A DNA stretch of 64,000 bases from an uncultured Prevotellaceae bacterium (GTDB taxonomy: Bacteria; Bacteroidota; Bacteroidia; Bacteroidales; Bacteroidaceae): NCBI GenBank assembly GCA_947167515.1, contig CAMVIM010000003.1:116590-180589 (forward strand), read 5' to 3'. The notes under the pieces were generated by a model. The model had not been told where the DNA came from, ran no database searches, and saw only the letters and a list, made by a program, of their open reading frames with translations. A program made the translations under genes and the position numbers. The first letter of the stretch is position 1, and every line of letters starts with the position of its first letter. Shown in pieces: positions 52,373 to 57,216 of this stretch.

Positions 52373-52852
52373 ATGAAATTTTCAGCTTTCTTAAAATCAA
52401 AGGGTCTACTCGTAGCGGCTTTCATGCTGCTTGTCGTTTCTATATCCGCTAAAAGTTTTATCTGGCAAACACCAGACACTGAGGAAAATGGTAATTCACA
52501 ACCATCAAACCTAAATGTTCCATCTTCTGCGAAATATAAATGTGTTGCAATATATAATTGCGGAGAACCATGGGCTCTTGATGATATTAGATATTATATT
52601 GAATTTTCCGATAACGGACTTACGAAATGGAGATTAGTGGATGGGGAGTGGAAAGAACCACAATGGTTCGATTTTAACAGGAAGCACGATACCGGAATAG
52701 TATACCTTAGAAAAAATTATCCTCTAAAGGGTTCTAGTGTCTATTGCACCGACCACTTTGAGTTTTCTTTAGACTTCTCAATATTGAAGAGGTATTACAG
52801 ATGTCCTGAGTCACCTTATGAATTTGACTATGTCTTCAAGAGAATCGAATGA
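52373..52852 (+). CDS. Exported protein of unknown function at the CXXX peptide locus
   Basis: A 159-residue protein with an N-terminal signal peptide or anchor (FLKSKGLLVAAFMLLVVSISAKS). The mature part is beta-rich with a few Cys (YKCVAIYNCGEPW, VYCTDHF, YYRCPESP) and aromatic residues. I do not recognise the family. It is clearly more A+T-rich than core genes and ends 52 bases ahead of the first Cys-rich precursor, so it may belong to the same unit. A role in immunity, binding or transport of the modified peptide is possible but unsupported. Confidence 0.65.
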   Translation: MKFSAFLKSKGLLVAAFMLLVVSISAKSFIWQTPDTEENGNSQPSNLNVPSSAKYKCVAIYNCGEPWALDDIRYYIEFSDNGLTKWRLVDGEWKEPQWFDFNRKHDTGIVYLRKNYPLKGSSVYCTDHFEFSLDFSILKRYYRCPESPYEFDYVFKRIE

Positions 52853-52904
52853 GGATTTGAATCCGAATTTGAGAGGGAATAGGCAAACCAAATCATTTTT
52901 AATT

Positions 52905-53252
52905 ATGGAGAAAAAGAAAAACAATGAAGAACTACAGAGTCGTCGTGAGTTTTTCAAGAAAGCAGCGAAAGGTACAATACCTATTTTGAGTACGATATTA
53001 CTTGCTTGTACCCCAACTATTGTTAAAGCAAAGACGCCTACTCCGATGGGCTGCATGTTTGGTTGTTCAGGAATGTGCTTGAATATGTGCACGACATCGT
53101 GTACAGGCAGTTGTATGGGATGGTGTACAGGCGGATGTGCGGCTCAGTGCAGCGATAATTGTCAAGGATGGTGTAAAGGCGGTTGTTCTGGTACATGTTC
53201 TGGAGGATGTTCTGGCGATTGTTCAAGTACTTGTACCAACTCAAGCAAGTGA
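52905..53252 (+). CDS. Tat-leader Cys-rich CXXX-repeat precursor peptide 1
   Basis: A 115-residue ribosomal peptide precursor. The start at 52905 gives the leader MEKKKNNEELQSRREFFKKA, with the twin-arginine motif SRREFFK and a hydrophobic stretch. TILLAC at residues 30-35 also fits a lipobox; otherwise cleavage would follow VKA. The core begins at MGC near residue 50. It has 16 Cys in perfect register, one every fourth residue to the end (CMFGCSGMCLNM ... CSSTC), with Gly, Ser and Thr between. The near-identical leader of precursor 2 shows a duplication. Upstream of a radical SAM maturase and Tat genes, it is the likely substrate of both. Confidence 0.9.
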   Translation: MEKKKNNEELQSRREFFKKAAKGTIPILSTILLACTPTIVKAKTPTPMGCMFGCSGMCLNMCTTSCTGSCMGWCTGGCAAQCSDNCQGWCKGGCSGTCSGGCSGDCSSTCTNSSK

Positions 53253-53367
53253 CAATTTTATTCACAAAAAAGAAGGATGTGTACTTTGTACAGACTCCTA
53301 CATCTTATAAGTATAATGCTGAATCTCGGGAAGTCTATAGGCGAAATATTAATCTCAAACTATTATT

Positions 53368-55024: not shown

Positions 55025-55966
55025 ATGTTGCAATACCTTGTTATATTATTAGACAAGACGAGCACATCGTTTTGCCACTATAAAGCCCCCTCTAACTCCC
55101 CCAAAGAGGGGAGAACACTGATACCTCTTGAGACTTTGAGGCAAGGCATCCGTTTCGGAATGATGGAGAACCTGATGATTCAGTATGTGTATCCTGACCA
55201 TGAACTGCCGGAGGAATATCAAGAAGTGCTGGAGAGCATTGACCACTCGAAGATAAAGCCATACGGACAGGAGGATGCCGATGTGTTGGTGGTGGATGGA
55301 TTTCAGCAAGTGAAGGCTACTGTACCCGTCGTGTTGCGCGTCACAAAAAAGGAACTCTTTGCCCATCAAGCAGAAGTGGCAGAGATGTTGGCTGATGTGC
55401 CGAGGCTGAATGTGGTCTTGACCGATGTGGAAACATTCACGGAGGCGGACTTTGAGGCATACAAAGAGTGCCTTACACGCTTGGCTGCAAACGTGGAAAG
55501 ACTTTACGTGGATGGCAAGTCGCCACAGTTGAACCTCTTGACAGACCGCATGATGCTCTCGCAGATGAACAACTGCGGTGCTGGTGACACGACCATCACG
55601 CTTGCGCCTAACGGAAAGTTCTACGTCTGCCCTGCATTTTACTATGAGAATGAAGCGGACAGCATTGGCGACTTAGAGCATGGACTTGACATCAAAAATA
55701 AGCAACTGTACAAGTTAGAGTATGCACCGATTTGTCGTCACTGCGATGCTTGGCAGTGCAAGCGTTGCATTTGGTTGAACAGAAAGACCACGCTGGAAGT
55801 GAATACACCAAGCCATGAACAGTGTGTGGTGGCGCATTTGGAACGTAACGCTTCAAAAGAACTCTTGCAGAACATCCGCAAGCATGGCACGTTCCTTCCA
55901 GAGCAAGAAGAGATTAAAGAAATTGATTATTTAGACCCTTTTGACAAAAGAGACACATGGCAATAA
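55025..55966 (+). CDS. SPASM-only partner (CXXX repeat peptide maturase)
   Basis: A 313-residue protein. It has no SAM-binding CxxxCxxC, but the C-terminal half carries a SPASM-like set: CGAGDTTITLAPNGKFYVCPAFYY near residue 185, then CRHCDAWQCKRCIWLNRKTTLEVNTPSHEQC. It looks like a radical SAM paralogue that has lost its first cluster, as in split maturase pairs. Near residue 20, KAPSNSPKEGRT is coded by a GC-rich palindromic repeat (55084-55117), replacing what should be a short loop. Five bases separate it from the maturase. Confidence 0.85.
   Translation: MLQYLVILLDKTSTSFCHYKAPSNSPKEGRTLIPLETLRQGIRFGMMENLMIQYVYPDHELPEEYQEVLESIDHSKIKPYGQEDADVLVVDGFQQVKATVPVVLRVTKKELFAHQAEVAEMLADVPRLNVVLTDVETFTEADFEAYKECLTRLAANVERLYVDGKSPQLNLLTDRMMLSQMNNCGAGDTTITLAPNGKFYVCPAFYYENEADSIGDLEHGLDIKNKQLYKLEYAPICRHCDAWQCKRCIWLNRKTTLEVNTPSHEQCVVAHLERNASKELLQNIRKHGTFLPEQEEIKEIDYLDPFDKRDTWQ
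55084..55117. repeat. GC-rich palindromic repeat inside the maturase-partner gene
   Basis: GCCCCCTCTAACTCCCCCAA followed by AGAGGGGAGAAC is the same repeat class as in aroE and uvrA. It stays in frame. Confidence 0.65.
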
Positions 55967-56235
55967 AGAAACTGGTAGGGCAAGTGACACCCGAAGAAAA
56001 GAATGAGATTCAGACTCTTTTCGAACGTCGCAATGGATTAAACGAGTTGGCAAAGATTCTGACGGCTGACAATGCTGACCTGTACGAGAAACTGGTGAAA
56101 GACATGGGCGAGACAGGCTCGAAGTTTCAAGACTGGTGGGACAGGATGGCAGAGAAGTACCAATGGGAGTCTGCCGAGAATGGTAACTGGGAGATAAACT
56201 TCGATACTTGTGACATCTATCTGGTAACAGCATGA
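55957..56235 (+). CDS. Small CXXX-repeat peptide modification protein
   Basis: A 92-residue helical protein. MAIKKLVGQVTPEEKNEIQTLFERRNGLNELAKIL and GSKFQDWWDRMAEKYQWESAENGNWEINFDTCDIYLV fit the small accessory family named with the CXXX-repeat maturases. It overlaps the partner gene by ten bases and TatA by four. A role as leader-binding adaptor between the Tat-type leader and the maturase is an inference. Confidence 0.8.
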   Translation: MAIKKLVGQVTPEEKNEIQTLFERRNGLNELAKILTADNADLYEKLVKDMGETGSKFQDWWDRMAEKYQWESAENGNWEINFDTCDIYLVTA

Positions 56236-56450
56236 TACAACCTTTATTTATCGGAACAACGGAACTGCTGCTCATAGGTGGCTTGGCTCTTCTTCTCTTT
56301 GGTGGCAAGAAGCTACCAGAGATGATGAAGGGCTTGGGGCAGGGAGTGCAGAGTTTCAAGAAAGGGATGAGTGAGCCGATGGCCGAGGAACATCCTACGG
56401 AAGAAGAGAACGAAGTGAAGACAGACGAGGATGTCCCCAGCAAAGAATGA
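56232..56450 (+). CDS. tatA: Sec-independent protein translocase TatA
   Basis: A 72-residue pore component of the twin-arginine translocase. One N-terminal membrane helix (PLFIGTTELLLIGGLALLLFGG) is followed by the hinge and amphipathic helix FGGKKLPEMMKGLGQGVQSFKKGM, then an acidic tail. The 4-base overlap with the small modification gene ties Tat to the peptide locus. It overlaps TatC by 20 bases. Confidence 0.95.
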   Translation: MIQPLFIGTTELLLIGGLALLLFGGKKLPEMMKGLGQGVQSFKKGMSEPMAEEHPTEEENEVKTDEDVPSKE

Positions 56451-57216
56451 TAATCTGTTGACATTTGGCGGACACCTTGAGGTGCTCCGCCGAATGCTCT
56501 TTCGCATCATTGGTGTGGCTGGAGCAATCGCCGTTGTTGTGTTCTGTTTCAAAGATGAGACGTTTCGGCTCTTGCTGGCTCCCAGCGAATGGAACTTCAT
56601 CACTTACCGTTGGTTGGAGGAACTGATGCAAAGGGCTGGGATAGACTTCCACTTTGAGGAGTACCACATTGACTTGATAGCTACAGACTTGTCGAGCCAG
56701 TTCATGACTCACATCACTACTGCTGTCTATCTGGGACTATTGGGTGCCTCACCTTATATCCTATATGAGTTGTTCCGTTTCATCTCTCCTGCATTGTATG
56801 AGAATGAGCGGAAGTATTCGGTGCAGGTGGTGCTCACCATCTATGTCTTGTTCATCGCAGGTGTGCTGATGAGTTACTTTGTGCTGTTCCCCATCTCGTT
56901 CCGATTCTTGGGCACTTATAGTGTGGCGGATAAAGTACACAGCACCATCACGTTGGACTCCTACATCACCACCTTCACCTCGCTAACCCTCATCATGGGG
57001 GTGGTGTTTCAACTGCCAGTTGTTGCCTTTTTCCTTGGTAAACTGGGCATTATTTCTTCCAGCATGCTCACCCAATACCGCAAGCATGCTTTTATCCTTA
57101 TCATGTTTGTGGCTGCCATCATCACGCCGCCCGACATCATGACCTTGGTGCTCGTCACCTTACCACTTTATCTGCTTTATGAGGTGAGCATACGAGTGGT
57201 GAAGTGGGTGGAGTAG
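56431..57216 (+). CDS. tatC: Sec-independent protein translocase TatC
   Basis: A 261-residue inner-membrane receptor for twin-arginine leaders. N-terminal LTFGGHLEVLRRMLFRIIGVAGAIAVVVFCF is the signal-binding region with its Glu. Six membrane helices can be traced, with ISPALYENERKYS after the second/third, FRFLGTYSVAD, and AAIITPPDIMTLVLVTLPLYLLYE at the end. No TatB is present, as usual in Bacteroidetes. Whether this is the only Tat of the cell cannot be told from the window. Confidence 0.95.
   Translation: MSPAKNDNLLTFGGHLEVLRRMLFRIIGVAGAIAVVVFCFKDETFRLLLAPSEWNFITYRWLEELMQRAGIDFHFEEYHIDLIATDLSSQFMTHITTAVYLGLLGASPYILYELFRFISPALYENERKYSVQVVLTIYVLFIAGVLMSYFVLFPISFRFLGTYSVADKVHSTITLDSYITTFTSLTLIMGVVFQLPVVAFFLGKLGIISSSMLTQYRKHAFILIMFVAAIITPPDIMTLVLVTLPLYLLYEVSIRVVKWVE

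Follow-up and report, generated by a model that had tools for sequence, protein, structure and literature searches.

Peptides with CXXX repeats (a cysteine at every fourth residue) and their radical S-adenosylmethionine (SAM) maturases carry family names in NCBIfam, of which Haft and Basu (2011) are said to be the likely source. The subject of this study is an operon of this kind in a stretch of 64,000 nucleotides from an uncultured Prevotellaceae bacterium (contig CAMVIM010000003.1; the whole stretch is called the window), in which two precursor peptides are followed by a radical SAM/SPASM maturase, a partner protein, a small protein, TatA and TatC, the last two belonging to the twin-arginine translocation (Tat) machinery. 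This gene order, given in the original prediction from the sequence alone, was borne out by NCBIfam family matches (Table 1). The scores of the maturase (TIGR04115), the partner (TIGR04119) and the small protein (TIGR04116) are all above the respective cut-offs. By these profile scores the modification module belongs to the named CXXX-repeat system, and the prediction was right that such peptides and maturases have family names. Compared with the one-line names of the NCBIfam models, a private TatAC, a putatively dead partner, and lipoprotein and ATP-binding cassette (ABC) exporter versions are added here. Searches of the open-access literature for TIGR04114, TIGR04115, TIGR04116, TIGR04117, TIGR04119 or "CXXX repeat" with radical SAM found no paper, and among the papers listed, none was seen to describe this system or a ribosomally synthesized and post-translationally modified peptide (RiPP) with its own Tat. 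The module is known by name; the private Tat, the dead partner and the alternative exporters appear to be undescribed in the open-access literature searched.

Among described systems, the radical SAM enzyme QhpD cross-links QhpC, a Cys-bearing subunit of quinohemoprotein amine dehydrogenase, prior to export; there, export takes a different route, and the substrate is one folded subunit with no Cys ladder. We know of no Tat link for PapB or CteB and of no dead partner in the PapB pathway; the substrate of CteB contains few Cys. PapB of the freyrasin ranthipeptide pathway makes in-line thioethers from Cys within the motif Cys-X3-Asp/Glu (PMC9413430), and CteB, the SCIFF maturase (PDB 5wgg), makes Cys-Thr gamma thioethers (PMC10352776). 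The precursors of the window type differ from the PapB substrate, since their +4 position is mostly the next Cys.

We lean, if only slightly, towards the reading that the operon makes rigid Cys-ladder peptides, which are cross-linked in the cytoplasm by the radical SAM pair and exported in folded form by their own TatA-TatC. The Tat half of this mechanism is strong by comparison of loci; the chemical half draws on the kinship of the enzymes.

Cysteine ladders and modification enzymes

Two precursors with twin-arginine leaders and with 16 and 15 core Cys at a four-residue period had been predicted, and this description held. Peptide 1 contains 17 Cys, 16 of them in the core, and all 15 core gaps are of four residues. 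In peptide 2 (15 Cys) this applies to 12 of the 14 gaps, the remaining two being 3 and 5. When each core was shuffled 20,000 times, the gap-of-four count reached at most 9 (peptide 1) and 8 (peptide 2) and never the observed value; the Cys spacing of both cores is far from chance. Peptide 1 scored 39.5 bits against TIGR04117 (cut-off 50) and 20.1 against TIGR04114 (cut-off 20), and peptide 2 scored 46.9 bits against TIGR04117. Because both remain under the TIGR04117 cut-off, they were assigned by gene order and pattern and not as TIGR04117 members.

Over 135 precursors of related loci, 2328 of 2642 Cys gaps were exactly four, with 8 to 73 Cys per core (median 15) and up to 8 leader-bearing precursors per locus. 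Residues between the Cys were mainly S, G, T, K and N, with 7% D/E. For an alternation of the repeat with period 8, only a weak lag-2 correlation was seen (0.13, Gly at the middle position). Precursors of 340-470 amino acids, with CXXX stretches flanking or following other sequence, occur at L061, L074, L080, L303 and L005. That of L074 matched Fib_succ_major weakly (21.8 bits, cut-off 33.9), and a Pfam search with those of L005, L061 and L303 gave no match.

The maturase retains the radical SAM and SPASM signature. The closest other maturase family is PapB, the next NCBIfam model after TIGR04115 (NF047865, 181.7 bits), yet its cut-off of 340 was not reached; the score against TIGR03906, considered here for the QhpD kinship (95.5 bits), was far under the cut-off of 453. 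By sequence, the nearest solved structure is CteB (5wgg, E 3e-35, 10-sequence alignment A1). PapB and CteB are both thioether enzymes (PMC9413430; PMC10352776). Cytoplasmic cross-linking or metal loading followed by folding, as originally predicted, is plausible because the maturase is akin to thioether-forming maturases. A tandem second maturase is present at two loci (L332 and L333; 401 and 445 bits, phmmer), and at L337 a TAG interrupts the maturase.

In 67 aligned partner sequences, the CxxxCxxC SAM-cluster motif was absent from the first 60 residues of every one, and all seven SPASM Cys were kept in 67/67. The original prediction had taken the partner for a SPASM-only protein. Such a fragment was rejected because the predicted structure model covers a full-length, degenerate radical SAM fold, and the partner is predicted to be catalytically dead. 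A conserved Cys-His pair at partner residues 17-18 (C in 66/67, H in 63/67) lies about at the lost SAM-cluster loop and is perhaps a new metal or substrate site. The 92-residue small protein is predicted to adopt a beta-alpha-alpha-beta-beta order (model pLDDT, the predicted local distance difference test, 92), and fold searches with this model returned no informative match. Its element order differs from that of the classical RiPP recognition element, which we take to be a leader-binding, PqqD-like winged helix.

Twin-arginine leaders and linked TatAC

For comparison between loci, two samples overlapping in species were used. The named sample comprised 80 loci, the best of 396 in GTDB species genomes; 68 of these had 3 kb downstream and were counted, and 12 were dropped. 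For the family sample, 399 genomes were drawn evenly from the family of the window. A maturase above the cut-off was present in 42 of them, and of 44 maturase places, 4 were without room and 40 were counted. The split of the family sample, which includes the window, G033 and G035, was tallied by reading tables, as was the number of TatC copies in each of the 399 genomes. One genome (G034) has 8% contamination.

Partner and small protein follow the maturase in 68/68 named loci. Next in line are TatA and TatC in 51, TatA alone in 2 and neither in 15; the corresponding numbers for the 40 family places are 30, 2 and 8. Whether TatAC belongs to the locus elsewhere in Bacteroidales, a question raised with the original prediction, can thus be answered with yes for most relatives examined, and tatAC was not found beside unrelated genes as a rule. 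TatA without TatC in the operon was noted at L261/L074 and L312/L080. As 15/68 and 8/40 loci are without linked TatAC, a private Tat is not obligatory for the system.

Twin-arginine leaders accompany the linked TatC at 53/56 named and 27/27 family loci; at the other 3 named loci the contig stops short of the leader or no precursor was found. The leader is kept as well where no TatC is in view (23/24 named, 14/14 family; loci without downstream room are included in these counts), the exception being cut by a contig end. When TatC was not linked, it was found elsewhere in the genome in 12/15 cases of the named sample and in 9/10 of the family sample (8 with neither gene linked, 2 with TatA only). 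In a family further removed (f51), two genomes combine Tat-type leaders with no linked TatAC and one TatC elsewhere; there, the partner is fused to the small protein (checked in one of the two). Precursors at loci without linked TatAC had longer cores (median 22 CXXXC steps in 17 precursors versus 12 in 96, p 0.005, uncorrected for kinship, with the list of linked loci compiled by hand).

Both window peptides carry an SRREFFK leader. In the precursors of relatives, the strict motif S/T-R-R-x-F-x-K was present in 102/135 and RRxF in 130/135. An alignment of 133 distinct leaders, which were chosen for R-R so that this pair is constant by selection, had F at +3 in 96%, F at +4 in 93%, K at +5 in 86%, L at +12 in 86% and P at +13 in 92%. 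This conservation seems to exceed what Tat needs, and we therefore infer that the maturase reads part of the leader. Sec as main export route was rejected, by inference only, because F at +3 and K at +5 are so frequent among those chosen for R-R.

About 40 of the 135 leaders appear to be of the Tat-lipoprotein type. The figure is approximate because two regular expressions counted 46 and 52 lipoboxes, both with false positives inside the repeats. In 12 precursors the sequence C-x-[KR]-[DE][DE] was found, which resembles a surface-export signal and is close to the minimal one for Capnocytophaga lipoproteins, given as C-X-K-(D/E)2-X (PMC5080379). An AxA-like site was present in 88/89 leaders not called lipobox, as judged with a very permissive expression. 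In the window, peptide 2 belongs to the AxA type, and peptide 1 has an AxA-like end plus a weak lipobox-like LLAC. With twin-arginine motif, hydrophobic stretch and AxA or lipobox all present, the window peptides are candidate Tat substrates.

The window genome has a second, housekeeping tatAC on another contig, adjoining a gene with an RRDFLK leader and a lipobox-like end. It encodes the same two-gene machine as the operon, as housekeeping TatAC of Bacteroidales does, but its TatC falls among the unlinked TatC proteins of the genus and apart from the window TatC. A tree built from 123 TatC proteins, of which 59 are linked and 64 unlinked, needed 2 label changes versus a shuffle mean of 41, and none of 500 shuffles was as low. 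Fifty-three linked TatC, including that of the window, form one group (SH-aLRT, the Shimodaira-Hasegawa-like approximate likelihood ratio test, 96). The other six join L215, an unlinked TatC that lies among ordinary genes, and we read them as a second, independent recruitment of a housekeeping TatC.

At least two TatC were present in 25/42 family genomes with maturase versus 20/357 without (Fisher p 1e-16), and any TatC in 20/20 complete genomes with maturase versus 144/187 without (p 0.016); neither test was corrected for kinship. Counted among the 20/357 is G020, whose second TatC (L264:5932-6606) is N-terminally shorter (aligned positions 21-208), by eye most like the window TatC, and perhaps a relic. 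In 10 of 35 genomes with linked TatAC, no TatC was found outside such loci, with places matched by coordinates; nine of these have one TatC and one has three, and most are draft metagenome-assembled genomes (MAGs). The named strains Leyella stercorea DSM 18206 and Xylanibacter caecicola PCHR (three TatC) are among those in which only locus-linked TatC was detected.

Three loci of family f42 (L257, L258 and L259, in G189, G406 and G100) have leaders without twin arginine, in which the block ending in L-P is kept (aligned by eye), and five-Cys cores. Their partner gene is followed by a 588-604 residue ABC exporter and no TatAC; the exporter of L257, the one tested, is MsbA-like. These genomes also have TatC elsewhere. 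Leader type and exporter type change together at 3/3 loci. Taken with the locus TatAC, the separate clustering of its TatC and the twin-arginine leaders, this swap lends comparative support to the predicted Tat export of the operon peptides.

Proposed mechanism and alternatives

According to the mechanism that we propose, the leader would have two jobs, with the maturase reading its F-F-K...L-P block and Tat its twin arginine. The active enzyme would form intramolecular thioethers from ladder Cys to residues in between, and the dead partner and the 92-residue protein might keep the substrate in place or relay electrons by way of the SPASM clusters. The product would be too stiff for Sec and would therefore need Tat. 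After transport, peptides with an AxA end would be cut free into the periplasm; lipobox peptides would stay on the outer membrane and, if they carry the acidic surface-export motif, face outward.

Distant maturases were also found on viral contigs. Of 58 such loci (L119-L175), 41 had a CXXX-rich open reading frame (ORF) within 4 kb (examples are L119:7801-9243, L142:8244-9581, L149:8622-10004 and L136:8300-9556). In these 41, there was no strict Tat motif and no Tat gene, and partner or small protein in one only. All three viral-contig maturases tested exceeded the TIGR04115 cut-off (435, 496.5 and 652.8 bits). Out of eight viral Cys-rich proteins tested, two (L149 and L136) gave tail-protein matches, L136 together with a strong GDSL-lipase match and L149 with a weak galactose-binding match; seven matched phrog_6085 (function unknown), only or also. 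These data weakly support a structural or adhesive role. In Erwinia phage vB_EamM_Asesino (L276), a distant match to a phage maturase (26.6% identity), the adjacent genes gp180-gp181 are annotated as radical SAM, in a stretch with virion structural genes.

A structural or adhesive surface element is favoured over an antibiotic, because core size varies between 8 and 73 Cys, some cores are attached to other domains, and similar repeats occur on viral contigs, two of them on apparent tail-type proteins. A wider version of this idea is held only tentatively and is doubtful as a whole, namely that a class of ribosomal peptides, Cys-ladder rods, is cross-linked by a half-dead radical SAM pair, exported in finished form by a Tat for them alone and set free in the periplasm or displayed on the surface, and that phages stiffen Cys-ladder arms of tail-type proteins with the same maturase family and without Tat. 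Secreted antimicrobial or signalling peptides of the sactipeptide or ranthipeptide kind, with Tat replacing the usual ABC exporter, are an improbable alternative. Many Cys-cross-linked RiPPs are antimicrobial, an ABC exporter stands in the place of TatAC at the three f42 loci, and as many as 8 leader-bearing precursors occur in one locus; the wide range of core sizes, the lipoprotein-type ends on about 40/135 precursors and the joining of CXXX to another domain in a few weigh somewhat against such products.

In another alternative, the Cys ladder would be a scaffold for metals or metal clusters, with the radical SAM pair altering most Cys slightly or not at all; Cu, Zn or Fe would be bound in the cytoplasm and Tat would export the loaded peptide. 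We regard this as unlikely, because the maturase keeps its radical SAM/SPASM signature and is closest, in both families and solved structure, to enzymes that form thioethers, although 15-16 core Cys in each small peptide, the lack of a residue such as Asp at +4 as an obvious acceptor of the thioether and the general use of Tat for cofactor proteins would fit it. That tatAC is a passenger by descent, with the precursors handled by housekeeping Tat or Sec, is very improbable. The 15/68 loci without linked TatAC, 12 of these 15 genomes having TatC elsewhere, and the two f51 genomes would agree with it, but linked TatC stand apart from unlinked TatC and, as the tree is read, go back to two recruitments, only linked TatC was found in 10/35 genomes, and leader and exporter type shift together at the three f42 loci.

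Several observations count against cross-linking and dedicated Tat export. With the TIGR01409 Tat-signal model (E up to 1), a whole-genome scan of the window genome gave 3 matches, none at the precursors, and a scan of the two named strains gave no match. Start-bearing Cys-repeat ORFs without RR leader were found beside leader-bearing ones at L053, L070, L077, L304 and L308, perhaps as broken copies, wrong starts or cytoplasmic partners, and at L072 the leader is disturbed. Linked TatAC is missing in 15/68 named and 8/40 family loci, and 3 of those 15 named-sample genomes, all draft MAGs, showed no TatC anywhere. The window precursors fall short of TIGR04117, and the PapB motif is not seen, with Cys at +4 in 2328/2642 gaps and D/E as a minor share of the residues in between. 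The statistical tests ignore kinship, and the TatC tree was made by a quick method with no bootstrapping and has 42/119 inner branches open.

Operon layout and significance

Successive spacings from the peptide 1 gene onward are 115, 59, 5, -10, -4 and -20 bases. The predicted overlapping or nearly touching arrangement thus applies from the maturase through tatC; the peptide genes lie 115 and 59 bases from the next gene. The start given with the original prediction was 52373. This coordinate belongs to a separate, adjoining ORF of 159 residues (52373-52852) with a signal-like start. NCBIfam and Pfam profile searches gave no match for it, and among the collected loci it matched only the window itself and L008 of the same genome; because it has no relatives at other loci, it was left out of the system.

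Table 1. Genes of the operon, with positions in the window
Feature	Position	Strand	Evidence
CXXX precursor peptide 1, 115 aa (amino acids)	52905..53252	+	SRREFFK leader, 16-Cys core, Cys every fourth residue
CXXX precursor peptide 2, 111 aa	53368..53703	+	SRREFFK leader, AxA-like end (SKA), 15-Cys core
Peptide maturase of the radical SAM/SPASM kind, 418 aa, predicted to cross-link	53763..55019	+	TIGR04115 612.8 bits (cut-off 350)
Degenerate radical SAM partner (predicted), 313 aa, SPASM Cys kept, SAM-cluster motif lost	55025..55966	+	TIGR04119 257.3 bits (cut-off 150)
Small accessory protein, 92 aa	55957..56235	+	TIGR04116 102.7 bits (cut-off 50)
TatA, locus-linked Tat translocase	56232..56450	+	TIGR01411 56.9 bits (cut-off 53.9); PF02416 49.5 bits
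TatC, locus-linked Tat translocase	56431..57216	+	TIGR00945 164.1 bits (cut-off 132.7); PF00902 207.8 bits

If the proposed mechanism is true, the operon would represent a RiPP-type pathway with a dedicated translocase for folded proteins, and would test directly whether Tat can be reserved for one small cross-linked cargo. The strains Leyella stercorea DSM 18206 and Xylanibacter caecicola PCHR are suited to such testing. The modification enzymes would constitute a two-protein radical SAM maturase, one partner of which is without the SAM-cluster motif, acting on a new long-repeat cross-linking substrate. Across the relatives, one maturation system could then be compared, as a natural experiment, with its own Tat, a shared Tat or an ABC exporter.

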